Positions 1,079 through 43,263 of a stretch of 43,263 nucleotides of DNA are shown piece after piece; position 1 is the stretch's first letter; every line of letters starts with the position of its first letter. Source of the DNA: Anaerolineae bacterium (GTDB lineage Bacteria > Chloroflexota > Anaerolineae > Aggregatilineales > UBA3940). The stretch covers positions 1 to 43,263 of the forward strand of contig JAFGOY010000047.1 of the NCBI GenBank assembly GCA_016926255.1, read 5' to 3'. The notes beneath the pieces are model-generated. The model ran no database searches, was not told where the DNA came from, and saw nothing but the letters and a program-made list of their open reading frames with translations. The position numbers and the translations under genes are program-made.

Positions 1079-3742
1079 TCACTTGCTTCCTATCGACAGG
1101 ACTTCTAACTGAATAAGGCCGTTTTGCGCCTCAGGGCTGCTGCCTGACACGAGCAAGCGATCCAGTTCCGGGTAGCGATACATCCCGGTGAACAGCGTGT
1201 AGCTGCCGGGCGGAAGGTCGGGGGGGAGCGCCAGCTCGATCCGCTGGTGGATGATCTCACCGGGCGACCAGCTCGTGGTGGGATAGGCATCACGCAGGGG
1301 AGCGCCGTCGGATTGGGCAACGATGCCGCCCTGTTCATCGACCAGGTGCACAAAATAGTGAACCCGGCCTTCGGTCGGCGCGAGCGCCTGCCAGGCCAGC
1401 GTGAAAGCGAACGTCTCGCCGGGTGCGGGGTCGTTTTCACGGCGGTAGTCGATCAGGCTGATCGACTCGCCGAGATGCACATCGAACGGCGTCGAGGCGG
1501 CGGCGTCACCGGACGGGAGGAACTCGACGGATTGCAGCAGCACACCGGTGCAGGATTCGCGTGGGTCGTCGAGCCAGCATTCGGCGTCGGAGAGCGGGGC
1601 GTGGGTCAGCGAACAGCCGATCATACAGCGCGGGTCACCGGACACGGCGCGGCAGGGTTCGCGCTCGATGAAGCGGATGACGTTCAGACCTTCGGCGAGG
1701 GTCACACCGGGGAGCAGGTAATCGAGATATTCGCCGATCACGAGGTTGACCGCGGCGGGTTCATCGTTGACTATCAGGCTGAGGTGGCGAGGCGCATCGG
1801 GGGCAAGGGCGCGAAAGCGCAGGGAGCCAGATACCGGCTGCGGGGCGTAAATGACAAGGTCGGCGGGGCCGGTCAGCCAGCGGGCAGGGAGTCCGCCGAA
1901 GGTCGTCGTCGGCGACCAGCCTTCACGGGTGTCGAGGCCATACATGAGCGGCAGATCAGGCGTGCCTGAAGCATCGACGCGATAGACGGCGGCGGCAGCA
2001 TCGACGGCCAGCGGGTCGCCAAAAACGATTTGCTGCCACGCCTCAACGGTGGCGGCATCCTGAAGACGCCCGCGACCGACGATCACATAGCCGATGCCCT
2101 GGTCAGCGAGGAATGTGCGGACGGCGTCGGGCGACGGGGCAGGGATGATGTCCGCATGGGCGGCGCCGTTCGCCTGCCAGCCAAGCAGGCCGACGAGGCC
2201 GGGTTCGGGTTCGATGTCGCGCAGATCGTGGCCGCCAACCATCGGACGCCGGTGGGTGAGTATGAAGCCCATCGCCTCCTGGGTCATGTCATAGGATTCG
2301 GTGGGGATGTTCAGCACGCCGCCGGGGCCGGGTTCAGCGGCAAGGGCGGCGACCGCCGAGGGGGGTGCGGCGGAACGGACGGGCAGCGGCCAGCCGACCT
2401 GGGTGTCGAGGACGATCAACACGCAGAGCAGCGGCAGCGCAGCGCGGCGCAGCCAGAGCGGACGGCGCGAGAGCCACTCGATCATAATCAGCGCACCCTG
2501 GGCGGCAAGGACGGCAACGGCAATGCCGGTCGAGAGGTTAAAGCGGCCCGGCGTGCGACCCAGACTGAGCAGCGGCAGACGGTCGACGAGGGTATAGGGG
2601 AGCGGGATCGCGGCGTTCTGCTCAGCGATGGTGAAGCTGACAACCTCGCCGCCGACCTTGAGCAGCGGGCCGAGGGCAAGCACATGGCCGGTAATCGCAG
2701 CGGCGATCCACAGTCCGGACTCAGATCGGTGGCGGACCAGGGCGAGGACGATCAGCAGCATCGCGAAAAAGCCCCAATAGGCGGTGACCTCGTGCATGGC
2801 GTCAGGCGGCTGGCGCAGGGACTCCGGTAGCAGGTGCGACCAGACCAGGCCGGTTGGCGGGGGGCGGAAGATGGTGAAGAGCGAGGTCGAATTGGCGGTG
2901 TCGCCGCCAGTCTGCCAGTTATAGGGGATGGCGGCAGTCTGGCGCAGCAGCGGCGCGGCGATGGGCAGCAGGATCAACAGGCCGACCGCGACGACTATCA
3001 GCAGGGCACGCCAGACCGGCCACGAACGGCGGCGGTCGGCATCGAGCAGGACACAGCCGACGACAAGAACGACCGTCAGCGGGGCGGCGGCATAGACACT
3101 GGCGGAGATGTGGGACATCGCGGCAAGGGCCATAAAAAGCCCGGTCACAAGGGCGTGGCGATAGGTTGGATCGAGGATCGTGCGGCGCAGAAACAGGATA
3201 AAGAGCATCGTGAAAGTGAGGTCGCCGACTTCGAGATGCCCGGCGAGGCCGTGCAGCACGCGGAGCGGGAACTGCATCAGCACAAGGCCGCCGACAAACG
3301 CCGCGCGGCGGTCTTTGACGACGTCGAGGCAGAGCAGGTAGGCGGCGAAGCCGTTGAGCGTGTAGACGGTCAGCCAGAGGAGGGAATAGGCGCGCACCGG
3401 CGTGAAGAGAAGCTCGAAGGGGAAAGCAAGCAGCATATGGAGCGAGGCCAGCGCGCGCAGCGGCGAGAAGTAGCCGGTGGGACAGCCAAGCTGGGTGAAG
3501 TGGGCGGGATGGCGACCGGCGAGGATCGCGTCTTTGGCCTGGGAGTAGAGCCAGGTCAGTTGGAATTGATCGCCGATCTGGAAGCCGGGGAAGGCGCGGC
3601 CCGATTGGGCGATGACGGGCCAGGTGAGCAGCACGGCCAGCAGGGCGAACAGGAAGAAGACCGCGCCGTCGAGCAGAGTCGATTGGCGGCGGGGGGAAAG
3701 CTGGTGGTAGCGGTCGCGGGCCTGGTTGTATAGTTTGATCAA
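1079..3742 (-). CDS. Large polytopic membrane protein, GT-C/YfhO-like, with C-terminal beta-module
   Basis: 887 residues. The N-terminal 460 or so residues hold about ten hydrophobic segments, with a long first outside loop (GDQFQLTWLY, 'HFTQLGCPTGYFSPL') of the type found in GT-C-fold glycosyltransferases that use polyprenyl-linked sugars. The rest is extracytoplasmic. It ends in a beta-sandwich module 'FAFTLAWQAL...YFVHLVDEQG...TTSWSPGE...LPPDLPPGSYTLFTGMY', which also occurs at the end of the protein at 27053-30271. The substrate is unknown; transfer of sugars to an outer-surface glycan is an inference. The IS6 element sits 8 bases past the stop codon, so the gene is intact but may have lost its original terminator. 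Confidence 0.8.
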   Translation of the reverse strand: MIKLYNQARDRYHQLSPRRQSTLLDGAVFFLFALLAVLLTWPVIAQSGRAFPGFQIGDQFQLTWLYSQAKDAILAGRHPAHFTQLGCPTGYFSPLRALASLHMLLAFPFELLFTPVRAYSLLWLTVYTLNGFAAYLLCLDVVKDRRAAFVGGLVLMQFPLRVLHGLAGHLEVGDLTFTMLFILFLRRTILDPTYRHALVTGLFMALAAMSHISASVYAAAPLTVVLVVGCVLLDADRRRSWPVWRALLIVVAVGLLILLPIAAPLLRQTAAIPYNWQTGGDTANSTSLFTIFRPPPTGLVWSHLLPESLRQPPDAMHEVTAYWGFFAMLLIVLALVRHRSESGLWIAAAITGHVLALGPLLKVGGEVVSFTIAEQNAAIPLPYTLVDRLPLLSLGRTPGRFNLSTGIAVAVLAAQGALIMIEWLSRRPLWLRRAALPLLCVLIVLDTQVGWPLPVRSAAPPSAVAALAAEPGPGGVLNIPTESYDMTQEAMGFILTHRRPMVGGHDLRDIEPEPGLVGLLGWQANGAAHADIIPAPSPDAVRTFLADQGIGYVIVGRGRLQDAATVEAWQQIVFGDPLAVDAAAAVYRVDASGTPDLPLMYGLDTREGWSPTTTFGGLPARWLTGPADLVIYAPQPVSGSLRFRALAPDAPRHLSLIVNDEPAAVNLVIGEYLDYLLPGVTLAEGLNVIRFIEREPCRAVSGDPRCMIGCSLTHAPLSDAECWLDDPRESCTGVLLQSVEFLPSGDAAASTPFDVHLGESISLIDYRRENDPAPGETFAFTLAWQALAPTEGRVHYFVHLVDEQGGIVAQSDGAPLRDAYPTTSWSPGEIIHQRIELALPPDLPPGSYTLFTGMYRYPELDRLLVSGSSPEAQNGLIQLEVLSIGSK

Positions 3743-3928
3743 TGTAGTACGTCTCCATCACTTGTATTCATAGACCTATCATACCCCCTGTGAGCCTGAC
3801 GGCTCATCCGTCCCGTGTGAAACGAACCCGGCATCTGGCCAAAGCCGCCGGGTTATGGGGCCTCAGACGACCCTGTCCCGGATTGGCTATTTACGCACCT
3901 TTGTTATATCGCACCCAGGAGCCACCGA
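3743..3928. other. Non-coding stretch with two strong hairpins
   Basis: No convincing protein frame. Two perfect stem-loops are visible: TGAGCC/GGCTCA (3791-3796 with 3801-3806) and the 8-bp stem AACCCGGC/GCCGGGTT (3825-3832 with 3847-3854), the latter with a smaller GGC/GCC stem inside its loop. Neither is followed by a T-run, so they are not typical terminators. The region must carry the promoter of the minus-strand gene that starts at 3742. Confidence 0.4.
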
Positions 3929-4090
3929 TTGAGCAACATCATCGCTCTCAACCAGGCCCTATTTGCTGCTCAGCCCTACTTCGTGTTCTCTTCGACGCGA
4001 AACTCGACTATGCGGCGTCTGGATATCGCTGCGTGTCCGGCTCTTTACGTATATGGTCAATTGCGACGGAGGCTATCTCAGCAGGAATGA
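3929..4090 (+). CDS. Possible small protein (TTG start), unknown function
   Basis: A 53-codon frame starts with TTG at 3929, preceded by a good ribosome binding site (AGGAG, 3917-3921, 7 bases away), and stops with TGA at 4088-4090. The product is basic, with a C-terminus rich in Arg and Gln (QLRRRLSQQ), one Cys and no obvious signal or membrane segment. It could equally be the remnant of a longer gene. It stops 6 bases before the end of the convergent ADP-ribosylglycohydrolase gene. No homologue is recognised. Confidence 0.25.
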   Translation: MSNIIALNQALFAAQPYFVFSSTRNSTMRRLDIAACPALYVYGQLRRRLSQQE

Positions 4091-4096
4091 ATCTAT

Positions 4097-4945
4097 CTAC
4101 TCGTCAGGCTGAGTAATTTCCATCAACTGACCATCAAGCTTCTCGATGTACTCGCGTCCATATGCGCCATTCTCCAGACTTTGTAGAAGGTGATCGGGAA
4201 GATTCTGAGTATATTCCTCGCTGCATGATGCGGCAGCCAGTGCGACTGTCGCGACGGTATCGACATCACCAGTGAATTCGATGCAGTCGCGCAGCAGATC
4301 GCTCAGCGAGTCGTTCCGTTGCACTGCTGTGATAGCAGCGCGTACACTCATCCAGCCTTTGCTCTTGACTTTTCCTGCCCAGGGTTCAGACCATTGACCC
4401 GGCACAAGACTTTCCAGCCAGCGCCCCAAATCAGCTTTTGGGCCAATCCCGTAAATGAAATAGTGCGTCATCAGGGATGCTACCTGCGCAGCGTGGATTC
4501 CATCCGGGGTGTTGTGGGTAATGGCGGCCTGCAATTTGCAGCGTTCTTTGACCTCCGCCAAATCACTATAAACACCGATTGGTCCAGCGCGCATCGCGGC
4601 TCCACTTTTATCGCTTGTCGGGCGGATTTCGGCAAGGAACTGCTCACCACTCTCGATGCGCTGTAGAAACTCGTAGAATCCACCCGCGTACCCGGTTCGT
4701 TGATCGCGTTTGAAGCACTCAACGAACTTGTTCGCCAGCATGAGTGGTGTCCACGCTTCGCCGGAGAGTATCGCTTCGGCAATCGCCAGGCTCATCTGTG
4801 TATCGTCGGTATACATGCCCGGCAGGATTCTTCTGTGTCGCGGATGATGAAAGTAGCGACTCAAATCGTTGTGCTGCTGGATCAAATCCGCGCTGACATA
4901 TTCAAATCCGGCACCATAGGCATCACCGACTGCCAGTTCAAGAAG
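4097..4945 (-). CDS. ADP-ribosylglycohydrolase (DraG/ARH3 family)
   Basis: 282 residues, the usual size of the family. The two-metal site is complete: the N-terminal LAVGDAYGAGFEY glycine motif, the MYTDDTQM motif that provides Thr-Asp-Asp ligands, and the C-terminal FTGDVDTVA motif (GDxDT). The family hydrolyses ADP-ribose from proteins, or related N/O-glycosidic ADP-ribose links, in the cytoplasm. A longer frame reaches 5071, but the first 42 residues are the shadow of the upstream gene. ATG 4945 overlaps the upstream TGA (4938-4940) by 8 bases, and LELAVGDA follows directly, as expected at the family N-terminus. Translation is probably coupled to the amidase gene. GC content is lower than in the neighbours. 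Confidence 0.9.
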   Translation of the reverse strand, partial: LLELAVGDAYGAGFEYVSADLIQQHNDLSRYFHHPRHRRILPGMYTDDTQMSLAIAEAILSGEAWTPLMLANKFVECFKRDQRTGYAGGFYEFLQRIESGEQFLAEIRPTSDKSGAAMRAGPIGVYSDLAEVKERCKLQAAITHNTPDGIHAAQVASLMTHYFIYGIGPKADLGRWLESLVPGQWSEPWAGKVKSKGWMSVRAAITAVQRNDSLSDLLRDCIEFTGDVDTVATVALAAASCSEEYTQNLPDHLLQSLENGAYGREYIEKLDGQLMEITQPDE

Positions 4946-36225: not shown

Positions 36226-36420
36226 CTAGTCTTCGGGCACCGGGTTGATGCCGGGATGTTCCTCGGCAAAGTTGGAGAGGTGATATTCGGGCGATTTCTC
36301 GAATGCACTCTTGCAGCCGTCACAGCAGAAAGAGTAGGTCTTGCCCTTGTAGTCGCTTTTTGACGTCCATAAACCATCCTCGGCGGACATTCCACATACG
36401 ACGTCGTATACCAGTTGCAT
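36226..36420 (-). CDS. YHS-domain metal-binding protein, copy 1
   Basis: 64 residues from ATG 36420 (ribosome binding site AGAGGAGG). YHS/TRASH-like domain: Cys9 in YDVVCGMS and Cys32-Cys33-x2-Cys36 in FCCDGCKSAF. The sequence is close to copy 2 at 37318-37512 (same length, most Cys and aromatic positions identical). Such proteins bind copper or other soft metals and often accompany CopA. A longer frame upstream to 36576 is the shadow of the decayed thioredoxin gene. Confidence 0.82.
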   Translation of the reverse strand: MQLVYDVVCGMSAEDGLWTSKSDYKGKTYSFCCDGCKSAFEKSPEYHLSNFAEEHPGINPVPED

Positions 36421-36559
36421 AATCGGCCTCCTCTGATTGAATAGTCCGATACCGGTAGACCACCGTCCTTCGACATCTTTCGTATGTTCAGCGTGACGTT
36501 GAACCACTGACATAGCATTCCTCCTGAAAAGGGTTACCTTCTCCCTCCAGGGTGCCGTC

Positions 36560-37129
36560 GAGTGCCTCCTTAGCATGTTTTGTGAAGGTTTCCCGATCCA
36601 GCGCTACAGCAATCGCCGGTAGACAGGAACGTAGACCTACAGACGGGTAATGTTGCCATTATCGGTAGTACCGCCGTAGGCCTGGACTTCACGATTCAGG
36701 CAGTTCATCTACCCGGCCCCGGTAGTCTGGTTTCAAGCGTGCGGAACAGGAGCTTGATCATCTGCTGACCAGGGCACTCAATCGAGAAAAACGCCAGGAA
36801 TTTAAAACTGCCGGTGGCATTGACCACACCAGGAGGGTTGAACCGGAGATCGGAGCTGTAGAGCGATCAGGGTGTGCTGCGGACGATCCCTCAACCACCG
36901 TAATAGAGTGGTTGTTCGAGCCAGCGTCCTCTCCTCCGCTGGCCGTTCCAGAACCGTCGGTGGCGTTGCTTTGTTGTTGGGGCGCGAAGTTGGCATCACT
37001 GACCAGAGCCAGGGCAGCGACTATCACCCCGGCTTTTGGCATCGACTCCACGTCCCCGATGCACCCTTTGTTGATGATCGCAGAATCAGCCTGCAAGAAT
37101 GCGGACCGAAGCACGCGATATCCGTTCAT
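36560..37129 (-). pseudogene. Decayed copy of the thioredoxin-like lipoprotein gene
   Basis: From ATG 37129 (AGGAG at 37135-37139) a frame runs with a signal-like segment (AGVIVAALALVS), a low-complexity linker and 'AAHPDRSTAPISG', the counterpart of 'AVHPDRPSAPVPVSG' in the intact gene at 37537-38196. The next domain is visible only in another frame: PPGVVNATGSFKFLAFF matches PPTVVGATGNPQFLEFF of the intact gene, and the following frame has no CxxC but Cys-Pro-Gly-Gln-Gln-Met. After that, further stops and frameshifts scatter thioredoxin-like pieces (for example LDRETFTKHAKEALDG near 36560-36610). So it is a duplicated and decayed copy. Confidence 0.6.
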
Positions 37130-37317
37130 ATGCTCTCCTAGGGGCATACTATAAACCTATTAGTGGATGTGGACAAGTATCCGTGATCACTTCCTTGAAA
37201 GAACGCACAGCGGGGTGAAGGGAGCCTGCCAGACTCCCTTCACGTGAGGGTGAAAATGGTGTTGAATGAGGGCTGTTTCGATCCGCTGACTCCGAATCGG
37301 CGTTGTTGTGCTGGAGC

Positions 37318-37512
37318 CTAGCCTTGCGGTGAAGGATCGACGCCGGGGTGTTCCTCGGCAAAGTTCGCCAGGTGATAATCCGGTGATTTTTCGAATGCCC
37401 CCTTACAACCATTGCAGCAGAAGTAGTAGGTCTTTCCCTCGTGCTCGCTCTGTGATGTCCAGTTGCCCTTTTCGGTGGACATTCCACATACCACATCGTA
37501 TACCATGTTCAT
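37318..37512 (-). CDS. YHS-domain metal-binding protein, copy 2
   Basis: 64 residues from ATG 37512 (ribosome binding site AAGGAAGG). Cys9 in YDVVCGMS and Cys32-Cys33-x2-Cys36 in FCCNGCKGAF, as in copy 1. It starts 24 bases after the stop of the thioredoxin lipoprotein gene and is probably co-transcribed with it. Confidence 0.85.
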   Translation of the reverse strand: MNMVYDVVCGMSTEKGNWTSQSEHEGKTYYFCCNGCKGAFEKSPDYHLANFAEEHPGVDPSPQG

Positions 37513-37536: not shown

Positions 37537-38196
37537 CTAACTGTTTGCCGTCGCAAGATAATCGTCGAAAGCCTCGCGCAGCGTCGGCGCGCCGACCACG
37601 CCGAACCAGCGCTCGATTTCGTTGCCGTCCGCATCGATGAGAATGAAGACCGGCTGGCTGGAAATCCCAAAGGTGCTGACCACTTCTCTGTTCTCATTGG
37701 CTTCACGATCCAGGTATACAAAATCGACTTTGCCCCAGTATTCGGCCTCCAGAGCATGGACGGTTGGTTTCATACCGCTGCAAACACCGCACCAGCCGGT
37801 GAAGAATTCGAGGAACTGCGGGTTGCCCGTTGCGCCGACGACGGTCGGCGGATCGTAGCGATAATCGCCGGAGACGGGCACCGGCGCTGAAGGACGGTCA
37901 GGGTGAACTGCTTCGCTGGAATCCATCTCGTCCATATCATCATCACCCGACATGTCGTTGTCCGCCATGTTCGAGTCTTCCATCTCGTCATCGTGCGGCT
38001 CGTCGGCCATGTCTTCGTCGTCCGACATGTCCGAGCTGTCCATGTCATCGTCGTGCGGCTCATCGGCCATACCTTCGTCGTTTGATATGCCGGTGTCGGC
38101 CATCTCGTCCGGCGCGGCCAGCGCCGAACAGCCAGCGGCGATCAGCGCCACGAGGCCCAGCAGCAGTACCAATCTAACCCCAAATTTCCCGTTCAT
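37537..38196 (-). CDS. Thioredoxin-like lipoprotein with Met/Asp/His-rich linker
   Basis: 219 residues. Lipobox IAAGC (Cys23). Residues 31-96 are a linker with 10 Met, several His and many Asp/Glu, built on two near-repeats of 'MADEPHDD(D/E)M' and smaller DDM units. The thioredoxin domain follows (QFLEFFTGWCGVCSGMKP; Cys136 and Cys139, CGVC instead of the usual CGPC), with cis-Pro in SSQPVF. It is exported and membrane-anchored. Its location between YHS and CopA genes suggests a role in handling copper or in reducing copper-oxidised thiols. The linker resembles Met/His-rich copper-binding segments (inference). Confidence 0.82.
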   Translation of the reverse strand: MNGKFGVRLVLLLGLVALIAAGCSALAAPDEMADTGISNDEGMADEPHDDDMDSSDMSDDEDMADEPHDDEMEDSNMADNDMSGDDDMDEMDSSEAVHPDRPSAPVPVSGDYRYDPPTVVGATGNPQFLEFFTGWCGVCSGMKPTVHALEAEYWGKVDFVYLDREANENREVVSTFGISSQPVFILIDADGNEIERWFGVVGAPTLREAFDDYLATANS

Positions 38197-38312: not shown

Positions 38313-38340
38313 AAAACCGGGCGGCAAACCACCCGGTTTT
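38313..38340 (-). terminator. Terminator downstream of copA
   Basis: Stem AAAACCGGG (38313-38321) with CCCGGTTTT (38332-38340), 9 bp, loop 10 bases, and T-rich on both strands. It separates copA from the thioredoxin gene. Two more hairpins, CTCGCTTTT/AAAAGCGAG (38356-38376) and GGGGGAC/GTCCCCC (38385-38401), lie between it and the copA stop and look like dispersed repeats. Confidence 0.7.
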
Positions 38341-38408: not shown

Positions 38409-40883
38409 TCATGATAGCTTCTTGCGCCGCAGCAGCAGCGAATTACCGATCACGAATACGTCGCTGAAAGCCATCGCGAAGGCGGCGAGGATCGGGTGAA
38501 GCTGGCGCAGGATGTCGGGTGCCCAGGCGAAGGGATAGAGGATACCCGCCGCGACCGGGATCAGGATAACGTTGTAGCCGAAGGCCCAGAACAGGTTCTG
38601 CTTGATCGTCTTGATCGTCGCGCGGCTCAGGGCGAGGGCTTCGGGCACGGCCCGCAGATCGCCCCGGATGAGCGTCACGTCGGCGGTTTCCATTGCCACG
38701 TCGGTCCCCGTCCCGATGGCGATCCCCACGTCCGATTGGGCCAGCGCGGGCGCGTCGTTGATCCCGTCTCCGACCATTGCCACGATCTGCCCGGCGTCCT
38801 GAAGCTGACGGATGTAGTCGGCCTTTTCGCCGGGGAGCACTTCGGCGAACACCTCGTCGACTCCTGCTTCGCGGGCGATAGCCAGCGCGGTGGCTTTGTT
38901 GTCGCCGCTGATCATCGCCACGTGCAGCCCGGCGCGTTTCATTGCCGTAATCGCCTCGCGGCTGCCCTCCTTGAGCGTATCGGCCACCGCGATCAGACCC
39001 TGCGCTTTGCCGTTCGCCGCCACCCAGATCGCCGTTTTCGCTTCGTCCTGCAAGCGTGATGCGTGATCGGTCAGCCCGTTCAGTTCGACGCCCGATTCTT
39101 CGAGCAGTCTCCGGCTGCCGACCAGCACCGTCTGCCCTTCGACCATTGCCCGGACGCCCCGCCCGGTGATCGATTCGAAGCCTTCCGGCGCGGCGAGTTC
39201 GGCCAGGCCGCCCGCGTTGACCTTCGCCTCGGCGGCCTTCACAATCGACTCGCCAAGCGGATGCTCCGACCCGCGTTCGGCAGAAGCGGCCAGCCGCAGT
39301 ACGTCGTTTTCGCTGAGAGCGGATTTCGACCCATTCACGCTGGCAGCGACGACATCGGTGACCGTCGGTTCGCCGGTCGTGATCGTCCCCGTCTTGTCGA
39401 GGACGACGGCGGTCAGTTCGTGGGCGCGTTCGAGCGCCCCGCTGTTCTTGAACAGGATGCCCATCCCCGCGCCGCGCCCCGTGCCGACCATGATCGCGGT
39501 TGGCGTAGCGAGGCCCATCGCGCACGGGCAGGCGATGATCAGCACCGCCACCAGCCGAATCAACGCCTGGGTGAAGGTTGCGTCGGGCACCAGGAACATC
39601 CAGATCAGGAAGGTGACCAGCGCCACTGCCGCCACAGCCGGGACGAAGATCGCGGCGACTTTATCGGCCAGCCTTTGGATCGGTGCTTTGCTGGCCTGCG
39701 CTTCTTCGACCAGCCGGATAATCTGGGCCAGCGCGGTCTCGCGTCCGACGGCGGTTGCTTCGAGTTTGAGCAGTCCCTGCCTGTTGATCGTAGCCCCGAT
39801 GGCTTTGTCGCCCGGTGCTTTGTCGACCGGCAGACTCTCGCCGGTAATCATGCTCTCGTCGACCGCGCTGTGGCCTTCGACGATCACGCCATCGACCGGG
39901 ATTTTCTCGCCGGGACGCACGATCACGATCTCGCCCGCCTCGACCGAATCGATAGGCACGTCGATCTCTTCACCGTCACGCACGACGCGCGCGGTTTTAG
40001 GGCGCAGACCCATCAACTGGCGGATCGCTTCGCTGGTGCGGCCTTTGGCCCGCACTTCGAGCAGCTTGCCGGTGGCAATCAGGGTGATGATCGAGGCCGA
40101 GGTTTCGAAGTAGACGTGTCCGGGGGCCAGCCCCAGCGCTACGATCACCGAGTAGAAATAGGCGACGCTCGAACCGAGCGCGACCAGCACGTCCATGTTG
40201 GCCGCGCCGTTGCGCAGGGCCTTGTATCCGCTTCGATAATACTGCCAGCCGACGTAGAACTGAACCGGGGTCGCCATCGCCCAGAACAGGAAGTTGACCC
40301 AGGGGGCATGTGCCCACTCGCCGACCAGCCCGAAGTCGCGGCCCATACTTAAAAGGAAGAGAGGCAGTGTAAACAGCACACCGACCAGCAGCAAGCGCCG
40401 CTGCCGGTCGAATTCCTGTTCGCGGGCAGCGCGTTCGGCGTCCTCCAGTTCTTCTGATGTCGCGCCGTCGGCCACGCCGTAACCCACCAGTTCGATCTGC
40501 TTGATCAGGTCTCGGCGGGTCACCTGCCCGGCGACATAGGTCACACGGGCACGCTCGGTTGCCACGTTGATCGAAATATCGACAATACCGTCCAGCCGTT
40601 TCAATCCCTTCTCGACGGCGAGGGCGCAGCTTGCGCAGTCCATCCCGGTGATCGCCAGTTCGGTCGTCGCGGTGGCGATCCCGTAGCCGGTCATTTCGAC
40701 GCGCTCGATCAGCGCGTTTTCGTCAAGCAGGGCGGGATCGTAGATGACGGTCGCCCGTTCGAGGGCGAGGTTGACATCCACCTGATCGACGCCCTGTAGT
40801 TTCGTCAATCCCTTTTCGACCACAGATACGCAGTTCGCGCAGGTCATGCCGGTGATCGGCAGGGTGGTTTGTTTGGTGGTCAT
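38409..40883 (-). CDS. copA: Copper-exporting P1B-type ATPase CopA
   Basis: 824 residues. Two heavy-metal-associated domains: Cys15/Cys18 (GMTCANC) and Cys83/Cys86 (GMDCASC). Then eight membrane segments, the TGES loop at 348-351, the CPC motif at 452-454 (IACPCAMG), the phosphorylation site Asp496 in DKTGT, an SEHPLG motif and [13 protein letters not shown] with 'NxxxYN' and MxxS-type helices is the Cu(I) subgroup. It exports Cu(I) with ATP. The start could be TTG 40892 because AGGAG sits only 4 bases before it; ATG 40883 is 13 bases away and is given here. It follows csoR after 85 bases. Confidence 0.95.
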
Positions 40884-40968
40884 GGAGATCAAAAAGCTCC
40901 TATCAAAATTAAATCGATAATCGTTGATATATCGATCTGCGGTCGTTGCTGATGCAAATAGCTGCCGA

Positions 40969-41277
40969 TCAGACTTTTGTCAGTGCCTGAAACACGTCCC
41001 GCAGTTCGTTCAGTACGCGCTCGCTCTCGCCGATGTCGCCCTTCTGGATTGCGTCGGTGACGCAGTGATGCATGTGATCGTCGAGGATCATCAGGCTGAC
41101 TTTATCCAGCGCCGCCTTGACCGCCTGTATCTGGTTGATGATGTCGATGCAGTAGGCATCCTCATCGACCATGCGGCCTATCCCCTTCACATGCCCGCTG
41201 ACGCTCCTGATCCGGTTGGTCAGGCCCTCTTTGAGATCGTCGGGGCGAGTGCGTTTCATCGTCGCTAACTGTTCCAT
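40969..41277 (-). CDS. csoR: Copper-sensing repressor CsoR
   Basis: 102 residues from ATG 41277 with AAGGAG upstream. Cu(I) ligands Cys43, His68 and Cys72 have exactly the CsoR spacing (25 and 4 residues), in 'EDAYCIDII' and '[11 protein letters not shown]'. The four-helix DUF156 fold is complete ('[17 protein letters not shown]'). Cu(I) binding releases the repressor from DNA. It is the first gene of the copper operon with copA. Confidence 0.95.
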
Positions 41278-41290
41278 TGTGTTTCTCCTT

Positions 41291-41349
41291 ACCCCACCCC
41301 AGGGGGGAGGGGGTATACAGAGTATAGCGTTTCTGATATGCTTGTACAA
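41291..41349 (-). promoter_or_regulatory. csoR-copA promoter and CsoR-type operator
   Basis: On the minus strand: TTGTAC (41344-41349), a 17-base spacer and TATACT (41321-41326). Just downstream, around the predicted start site, lies the GC-rich imperfect palindrome 41291-41317 (ACCCCACCCC followed by AGGGGGGAGGGGGTATAC), which has the G/C-tract form with TATAC edges known for CsoR operators. The layout fits repression of csoR-copA by its own product. Confidence 0.65.
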
Positions 41350-41427
41350 GTGCTCCGTAAGAAATCTCGATGAATCCACCCGGTGTTTACGTGAATCTAA
41401 CAATCAGGTGCTATATCTATAATAGGT

Positions 41428-41456
41428 GTGACAGATGCCCTGATTTGGGATACAAT
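41428..41456 (+). promoter_or_regulatory. Promoter of the FmdB gene
   Basis: GTGACA (41428-41433), 17 bases, TACAAT (41451-41456), about 34 bases before ATG 41490, which has GGAGGA upstream. Confidence 0.5.
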
Positions 41457-41489
41457 CACCCTCGAAATCAATTTTATTGGAGGACAGTG

Positions 41490-41801
41490 ATGCCGATCTA
41501 TGCCTATGAGTGCAACGAATGCGGCGTCCGTTTTGAACGGAAACAGAGTTTCAGCGACGATCCGATAACCATCTGCCCTGAGTGCGAGGGTGAGGTGCAT
41601 CGACTCATCAGCCCGGTGGGTGTGATCTTTAAAGGTAGTGGCTTTTACGTTACCGACAACAAGTCGAAGGGCCGCGTGGCGACCAGCACCAGCTCGTCGA
41701 CCGACAAGGAAAGCAAGTCGAGTGAAGCACCGGCCAAGAAGACCGAGGCGAAAGCCGAGACCAAAACGGAAAGCAAAGTTTCCAGCAGCGGCGACGCATA
41801 A
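41490..41801 (+). CDS. FmdB-family zinc ribbon protein
   Basis: 103 residues from ATG 41490. The N-terminal zinc ribbon has Cys8, Cys11, Cys29 and Cys32 (YECNECGVRFE... ICPECEGEV), the FmdB/CxxC_CxxC_SSSS domain, followed by 'SPVGVIFKGSGFYVTD'. The C-terminal 45 residues are low-complexity Lys/Glu/Ser/Thr. A regulatory role was proposed for FmdB from formamidase operons, but the general role is unknown. A longer frame to 41370 is not supported by a ribosome binding site. Confidence 0.85.
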   Translation: MPIYAYECNECGVRFERKQSFSDDPITICPECEGEVHRLISPVGVIFKGSGFYVTDNKSKGRVATSTSSSTDKESKSSEAPAKKTEAKAETKTESKVSSSGDA

Positions 41802-41898: not shown

Positions 41899-41973
41899 GA
41901 TGTTGCTGCAAATTCATATAATGTCATGTTTCCTGCCTGCTACATAAACTTAATGTCTTCAGGACGACGACCG

Positions 41974-43263
41974 ATGAAAAAATCTGCCCACCGACTAATC
42001 CTTCTTATTGTTCTTGCCATTGTAACCCTCCTCCCGATGAGCACCGTCCATGCAGCGAACTTCACCGCCGGGAATTCTGCCGAACTGATCGTGGCGATCA
42101 ACACCGCCAACGGCAACGGTGAAGCCGATACCATTACCCTCACCGCCGACATCACCCTCAATGCGGTCGATAATTCAACCACCGGTGACAATGGTCTGCC
42201 GGTCATTACCAGCGACATTACCATCGAAGGCGATGGACACACCCTCACGCGTGATGGCAGCGCACCGAACTTTCGCTTCCTGTATGTGGATGCAGCGGGC
42301 GACCTGACGTTAAACAATGTTACGATCAGTAATGGTCGCTCAAATGTTGACGGCGGTGCCATCTACAACAATGGCGGTGCGCTCACCATCAGCCGGAGTA
42401 CGCTGGACGGCAACTATACGGGTGATGACGGGGGTGCCATTTACAATAACGGTGGCACGGTGACCATCGAGTACAGCACGATCAGCAATAATGAGGCTCC
42501 TACATCTGCTGGATTCAGCGGCGCTCTCGATAATCGCGTGGGCGGCATGATGACTATCTCCTACAGCATCCTGTCCGGCAACCGCGCAGGTAACGGCGGT
42601 GGTGCCATCTATAGCGATACGAATAATCCCACTCTGACCATTATCGGCAGCACGCTGGATGGCAATACGGCTGATTGGGGCGGTGGGATTCAATGCTCCG
42701 CTGGAACCTGCACGATCTCCGGCAGCACTTTTTCGAACAATACAGGCACTACATCTTCTGGCGGTGGAGGTCTTCGCGTCAGTACCAATGGCACCGCAGT
42801 TGTCACTAACAGCACGATCACTGGCAATACATCGGCGAATAATGGTGGGGGCATCTATGTCGCCGGGGTTCTGACGCTGAGGCATGTCACGCTTGCCGGG
42901 AACAGTGCGCCCACCGGCGCAAACCTGTACCGGGATAGCGGTTCTACTGTAAATGTGGCCTCCTCGATCATCGCCGACCCCGTTTCCGGTGGTAACTGCT
43001 CCGGTGCCATCACCGACAACGGTGGCAACCTCGAAGCGGAAAGCAGCGGTAGCTACACCTGCCCCGCGACCTTTACGCAAACGACGACCTCCGGTCTTGG
43101 GGCGCTGGCCGACAACGGCGGCCCGACCGGGACGATGGCCCTCGATACCGCGAGCTTGGCAGTCGATGGAACCGGCGCGGCCTGCGGCGGTGCGCCGACC
43201 AACGGCCTTGACCAGCGCGGCTATCCACGCGATGCTTTGTGCGACATCGGTGCCTTTGAATAC
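41974..43263 (+). CDS. Secreted right-handed beta-helix protein (choice-of-anchor type), partial
   Basis: 430 codons visible, open at the right edge. Signal peptide with TVHA cleavage. From residue about 30 a parallel beta-helix with repeats of the type GGAIYNNGGxxTIxxSTxxGN (about seven) follows a start motif 'NSAELIVAINTANGNGEADTITL'. It ends with 'TNGLDQRGYPRDALCDIGAFEY', the end motif of the choice-of-anchor Q family; the missing part would hold the cell-surface anchor. Extracellular adhesin or matrix protein is likely. An in-frame ATG at 41953 is possible; 41974 has AGGA upstream. Confidence 0.85.
   Translation, partial: MKKSAHRLILLIVLAIVTLLPMSTVHAANFTAGNSAELIVAINTANGNGEADTITLTADITLNAVDNSTTGDNGLPVITSDITIEGDGHTLTRDGSAPNFRFLYVDAAGDLTLNNVTISNGRSNVDGGAIYNNGGALTISRSTLDGNYTGDDGGAIYNNGGTVTIEYSTISNNEAPTSAGFSGALDNRVGGMMTISYSILSGNRAGNGGGAIYSDTNNPTLTIIGSTLDGNTADWGGGIQCSAGTCTISGSTFSNNTGTTSSGGGGLRVSTNGTAVVTNSTITGNTSANNGGGIYVAGVLTLRHVTLAGNSAPTGANLYRDSGSTVNVASSIIADPVSGGNCSGAITDNGGNLEAESSGSYTCPATFTQTTTSGLGALADNGGPTGTMALDTASLAVDGTGAACGGAPTNGLDQRGYPRDALCDIGAFEY

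Follow-up and report, generated by a model that had tools for sequence, protein, structure and literature searches.

Thioredoxins with a UxxC motif, in which selenocysteine (Sec) takes the first active-site position, have already been described (PMC1794560, PMC13188914). Zhang and Gladyshev (2006) counted three selenoproteins in Chloroflexi; two selenoproteome reviews, like the deep-Sep paper, do not mention Chloroflexota in their main texts, and the two reviews are silent on lipoproteins as well. Among thioredoxin-like proteins connected with copper, TlpA-type proteins reduce the cysteines of copper sites, and the copA-linked CopG binds a Cu cluster and carries CxCC with Met next to it (PMC7558416). 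The gene analysed here lies in a 43,263-nucleotide stretch of an Anaerolineae genome (contig JAFGOY010000047.1; hereafter the window). Comparison with its homologues makes it probable that its product, P0001, is the Cys form of a Chloroflexota family of surface selenothioredoxins: a lipid-anchored extracytoplasmic thiol-disulfide oxidoreductase fed by a membrane protein of the CcdA/DsbD type.

The open reading frame occupies positions 37537..38196, limits that the original prediction gave exactly, on the minus strand, and encodes 219 residues. A signal peptide with the lipobox IAAGC (residues 1-23, 38128..38196) ends at the lipidation residue Cys23, which does not vary across the 16-row family alignment; a pattern search finds a lipobox in most relatives. 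Beyond a long linker, residues 100-217 (37546..37899) form the thioredoxin fold. P0001 matches the Pfam thioredoxin family PF00085 with 40.7 bits (gathering score 23.5, E 2.5e-10), the AlphaFold2 model, computed with 16 family members, has a pLDDT of about 96 over this domain, and the top Foldseek matches of the model are thioredoxins only. An exported thioredoxin lipoprotein among CopA, CsoR and YHS genes, as first proposed, is confirmed. No NCBIfam model scores P0001 above its cut-off; the best TrxA/TrxC equivalog model reaches 43.9 bits against 96.8, and the TlpA/ResA/DsbE models reach 18.3 and 14.9 bits against 170 and 123. Those NCBIfam models with matches to most of the 15 sequences in the alignment describe thioredoxins in general. 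The CGVC site (37780..37791), which had been singled out as less common than CGPC, is present as WCGVC, but its residues are not telling, since the middle pair varies freely in the homologue alignment.

The original prediction overlooked the link of this family to selenocysteine. The first codon of the site, TGC, occupies the position at which relatives carry UGA. Genome searches return an in-frame TGA in 36 of 61 matched copies within the order and, in a phylum sample, in 20 of 22 copies from outside it; the genomes are assemblies of 65-100% completeness. When 33 distinct TGA homologues were fetched and read, the TGA fell exactly at the first active-site Cys, mostly as W-U-x-x-C, with the reading frame intact on either side. 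These relatives thus show a feature expected of bacterial selenoproteins, UGA in frame where a Cys is otherwise conserved. The second active-site Cys is invariant in all 61 sequences. Most Chloroflexota relatives appear to use Sec at the first, nucleophilic position.

The downstream hairpin was assessed with the bSECIS model and rules of PMC13188914. Counting the UGA as nt 1-3, nt 24-29 of the Sec forms pair with nt 35-40 around a five-base loop that always reads xGUxx. In this fixed register (nt 24-40) the 6-bp hairpin has a mean of 5.76 of 6 pairs in Sec forms versus 2.21 in Cys forms, and slid registers give at most 2.7. The first 15 Sec forms average 5.60 pairs, compared with 3.80 (sd 0.25) in protein-preserving shuffles of synonymous codons, none of 2000 reaching 5.60; several pairs in these forms change on both sides. 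A stem of at least 5 pairs with a G[G/U] loop at the fixed place is found in 32 of 33 Sec forms and 1 of 28 Cys forms. MFE z-scores computed over the 48-nt stretch gave no separation between Sec and Cys forms; counting pairs in the fixed register and applying the rules told them apart. At the corresponding place in the window gene (37752..37768, minus strand), comparison with the Sec relatives leaves 1 of 6 pairs and no hairpin. Three other Cys forms (L093, L080 and L010) keep 5, 5 and 4 of 6 pairs and are likely recent Sec-to-Cys exchanges; the pairs retained in L093 and L080 look like a fossil SECIS.

Of 61 genomes, 43 have SelB above cut-off. UGA copies are present in 23 of these and in none of the 18 SelB-negative genomes (Fisher p 2.9e-5); weaker matches underlie part of the 23, and the 15 closest genomes alone give p 0.003. 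A tRNA-Sec was found in most genomes with UGA copies, with ARAGORN confirmation in G002 and G006; the 75% complete genome G005 yielded none. The SelB-negative genome G003, of the same family, has three thioredoxin copies (L040, L041 and L048), all Cys. In the window's own genome, 96% complete, none of SelA, SelB and SelD exceeds its cut-off and no tRNA-Sec is found, the tRNA-Sec-like matches being tRNA-Ser. With these results, the TGC codon and the single SECIS pair, P0001 itself does not qualify as a selenoprotein. Selenoprotein forms are also listed for the FmdB-type zinc ribbon, YHS and P1B-ATPase families (PMC13188914); the window's members at 41370-41801 (+), 36226-37512 and 38409-40892 are all Cys forms, in a genome that lacks the Sec machinery.

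A tree built from 57 domains after masking of the catalytic residue puts the window copy in a fork of nine Sec and three Cys forms. The five rows nearest to it are all Sec, and the Sec/Cys label changes 8 times over the tree, against 18.8 for shuffled labels. The simplest reading, and the most likely one, is that the window's Cys form arose by a Sec-to-Cys exchange when its lineage lost selenocysteine. This direction falls short of proof because the fork has no internal resolution; as the branch is also only moderately supported (90/83), the window copy may instead descend from a Cys ancestor.

The composition of the linker and the surroundings of the gene led to the original prediction that copper capture by this redox lipoprotein is likely. 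On this view a Met/Asp/His linker would bind Cu and the thioredoxin domain would handle it within a copper regulon. The setting does favor such a role, with the gene placed right after copA and ahead of the YHS genes, all on the minus strand. Pfam and inspection of the upstream region identify a CsoR-type repressor at 40969..41277 on the minus strand, with a likely start at the ATG at 41277 and putative ligands that read as Cys-x24-His-x3-Cys; Pfam and NCBIfam identify the CopA-type copper P1B-ATPase with two HMA domains at 38409..40892. The first YHS-domain protein (37318..37512; PF04945, E 3.4e-11) starts 24 bp downstream of the lipoprotein gene. Alignment places a decayed second thioredoxin lipoprotein beyond it (36690..37042, minus strand, approximate limits), frameshifted and bereft of the active-site W and second Cys, and a second YHS-domain protein (36226..36420; Pfam) follows, with 76% nucleotide identity to the first in self-comparison. 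This order indicates that a Trx-YHS unit was duplicated and that one thioredoxin then decayed, leaving its YHS partner intact. An out-of-frame TGA near the site made the decayed copy a candidate for a dead selenoprotein gene, but three MAFFT alignments put TGC there, ungapped. At the far end of the window, 41926-43263 (+) encodes the first part of a long protein that continues beyond the window; its repeats of the STLDGN/NSTITGN type make a secreted parallel beta-helix likely.

Predicted regulatory features of the locus weigh against the copper-capture reading. A terminator-like hairpin (38313..38340, minus strand; -20.5 kcal/mol, z -3.6, ending in a T run) separates copA from the lipoprotein gene. 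Pattern search located one operator-like GC-rich inverted repeat, ATACCCCCTCCCCCCTGGGGTGGGGTA (41284..41316, minus strand), immediately upstream of the likely csoR start, which we take to be of the type that CsoR binds. It is the sole such site found, and the search returned none upstream of the lipoprotein gene.

The linker itself (residues 24-98, 75 residues; 37903..38127, minus strand) is as rich in Met as had been claimed: residues 24-94 (71 residues) hold 10 Met, 23 Asp, 8 Glu and 2 His, and a third His, H98, lies just past this stretch. At the window's Met frequency of 1.7% the probability of 10 Met is about 3e-7, and it rises to about 3e-5 if the duplicated part enters the count a single time. 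HDD and DDM do occur twice each, and this repetition derives largely from a 60-nt tandem duplication (first copy 38015..38074, second copy 37955..38014, minus strand; self-comparison). The copies are 80% identical and in frame, with 3 codons that differ synonymously and 8 non-synonymously; the three Met and the MADEPHDD block that both preserve would suit a role in binding. As a copper ligand set, however, the linker offers a single MxxM and lacks MxM, and its 23 Asp are accompanied by only two His. It is predicted to be disordered, with an AlphaFold2 pLDDT of 52-62 across most of its length.

Comparison with relatives weighs further against copper capture. The search for homologues of the same layout did recover proteins with lipobox, spacer and thioredoxin domain, but none with such a linker: where a lipobox could be recognised (about 45 relatives), the spacer is rich in Pro, Ala, Thr and Glu and nearly always without Met or His. 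The linker as a query against 61 related genomes gave three marginal matches only (E 0.06 to 0.95), and it is thus unique to the window copy among those examined. Even in the decayed second copy the linker is ordinary and not enriched in Met, and another lipoprotein of the same genome (contig 38) also carries an acidic spacer. The sole close homologue that likewise lies near copA and YHS genes, L042, counts in favor of a copper role by its position, but its spacer contains no Met, Asp or His. A copper neighbourhood was considered as a conserved feature of the family and rejected, because beyond L042 it extends only to a convergent P1B-type ATPase gene in L132, a more distant genome. There the ATPase, with a His-rich N-terminus (1365-3527, +), stands tail to tail with a Sec thioredoxin, WUVSC (3522-4291, -). 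Judged from these sequences, the copper association is real at this locus but does not characterise the family. The best reading of the linker is a flexible, acidic spacer that tandem duplication has enlarged, a repeat specific to this lineage with accessory metal binding at most. We consider copper capture unlikely, though the linker may bind copper.

Somewhat less likely still is that P0001 is an ordinary TlpA/ResA/CcmG-like surface thioredoxin for cytochrome or oxidase assembly that sits beside copA by chance. The fold, the weak family matches to ResA, DsbE and TlpA, and the activity of TlpA-type proteins on copper-site cysteines (PMC7558416) would fit, but the ResA, DsbE and TlpA models score the window protein far below cut-off and the scanned neighbours include no recognisable gene for cytochrome or oxidase assembly. 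That the UGA of the relatives reflects sequencing errors, pseudogenes or reassigned codons, a suspicion owed to general caution over draft assemblies, has almost no chance of being right, given its exact position in 33 distinct sequences with the frame intact on both sides, the covarying hairpin downstream, the co-occurrence with SelB and the ARAGORN-confirmed tRNA-Sec in two genomes.

For a surface selenothioredoxin family, of which P0001 would be a Cys form, the partners are suggested by sister branches. The neighbour scan finds in five sister-branch genomes, on the same strand, a molybdopterin oxidoreductase, one or two thioredoxins of the family and DsbD_TM (PF02683), in that order (L051, L056, L124, L125 and L126; partly in L052 and L057), and in two further genomes the oxidoreductase lies near the thioredoxin. 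The oxidoreductase belongs to PF00174 and is nearest to the SoxC/SorA sulfite dehydrogenases, under cut-off; in one of the five operons DsbD is fused to an AhpC/TSA domain. This arrangement supports electron supply by a protein of the DsbD/CcdA type. The close relatives of the window copy do not lie in such an operon, so the DsbD-type partner is carried over from the sister branches; a CcdA-type DsbD_TM gene is present elsewhere in the window's genome, on contig 35 at 70652-71344. A CcdA/DsbD-type membrane protein would keep the thioredoxin face reduced, and the reduced lipoprotein would in turn reduce oxidised thiols on exported proteins. Given the position beside copA and the YHS genes, the targets may be thiols that copper stress damages or that the cell needs during it; copper-stressed exported thiols as substrate, in the manner of TlpA or DsbC (PMC7558416), are a guess from this position. 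It is also conceivable, if improbable, that a relay runs class-wide in Chloroflexota from a DsbD-type protein through a Sec-thioredoxin lipoprotein to an exported molybdopterin oxidoreductase or its substrates, and that the window lineage, having lost Sec, redeployed the Cys form beside a copper exporter, with the Met/Asp linker binding copper near the active site.

The results point to a surface selenoprotein family in Chloroflexota that usual annotation would cut at the UGA. Its record of Sec and Cys forms, with signs of SECIS decay after exchange, offers a natural series for asking why Sec is kept or lost. They also advise caution: a Met/Asp-rich spacer beside copper genes should not be read as a copper site before the homologues are checked.

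Among known systems, CopG resembles the window protein in being exported, thioredoxin-like and encoded near copA. The window site is CGVC rather than CxCC, which sets it apart from CopG, and its Met residues lie in a disordered linker rather than beside the site. TsoB (NF045694), a rhodanese/DsbD fusion-like selenoprotein, shares the theme of selenium and DsbD and is matched by 11 of the 15 sequences in the alignment, at E values as low as 5e-9; these matches are of domain length only, against a cut-off of 805 bits, and here thioredoxin and DsbD are separate genes. With TlpA/ResA/CcmG the window protein has in common a membrane-anchored extracytoplasmic thioredoxin fold, presumably fed by CcdA/DsbD, but the family is lipid-anchored and the best-matching models stay far below their cut-offs for the window protein. 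The Sec thioredoxins of the UxxC type (PF00085; PMC13188914, PMC1794560) are like the family in fold, in Sec at the first position, in having Cys homologues and in the downstream bSECIS. Unlike them, the family consists of exported lipoproteins with a long spacer and W-U-x-x-C with variable middle residues, its genes in sister branches stand beside a molybdopterin oxidoreductase and DsbD, and the window protein scores far under the TrxA/TrxC equivalog cut-offs.
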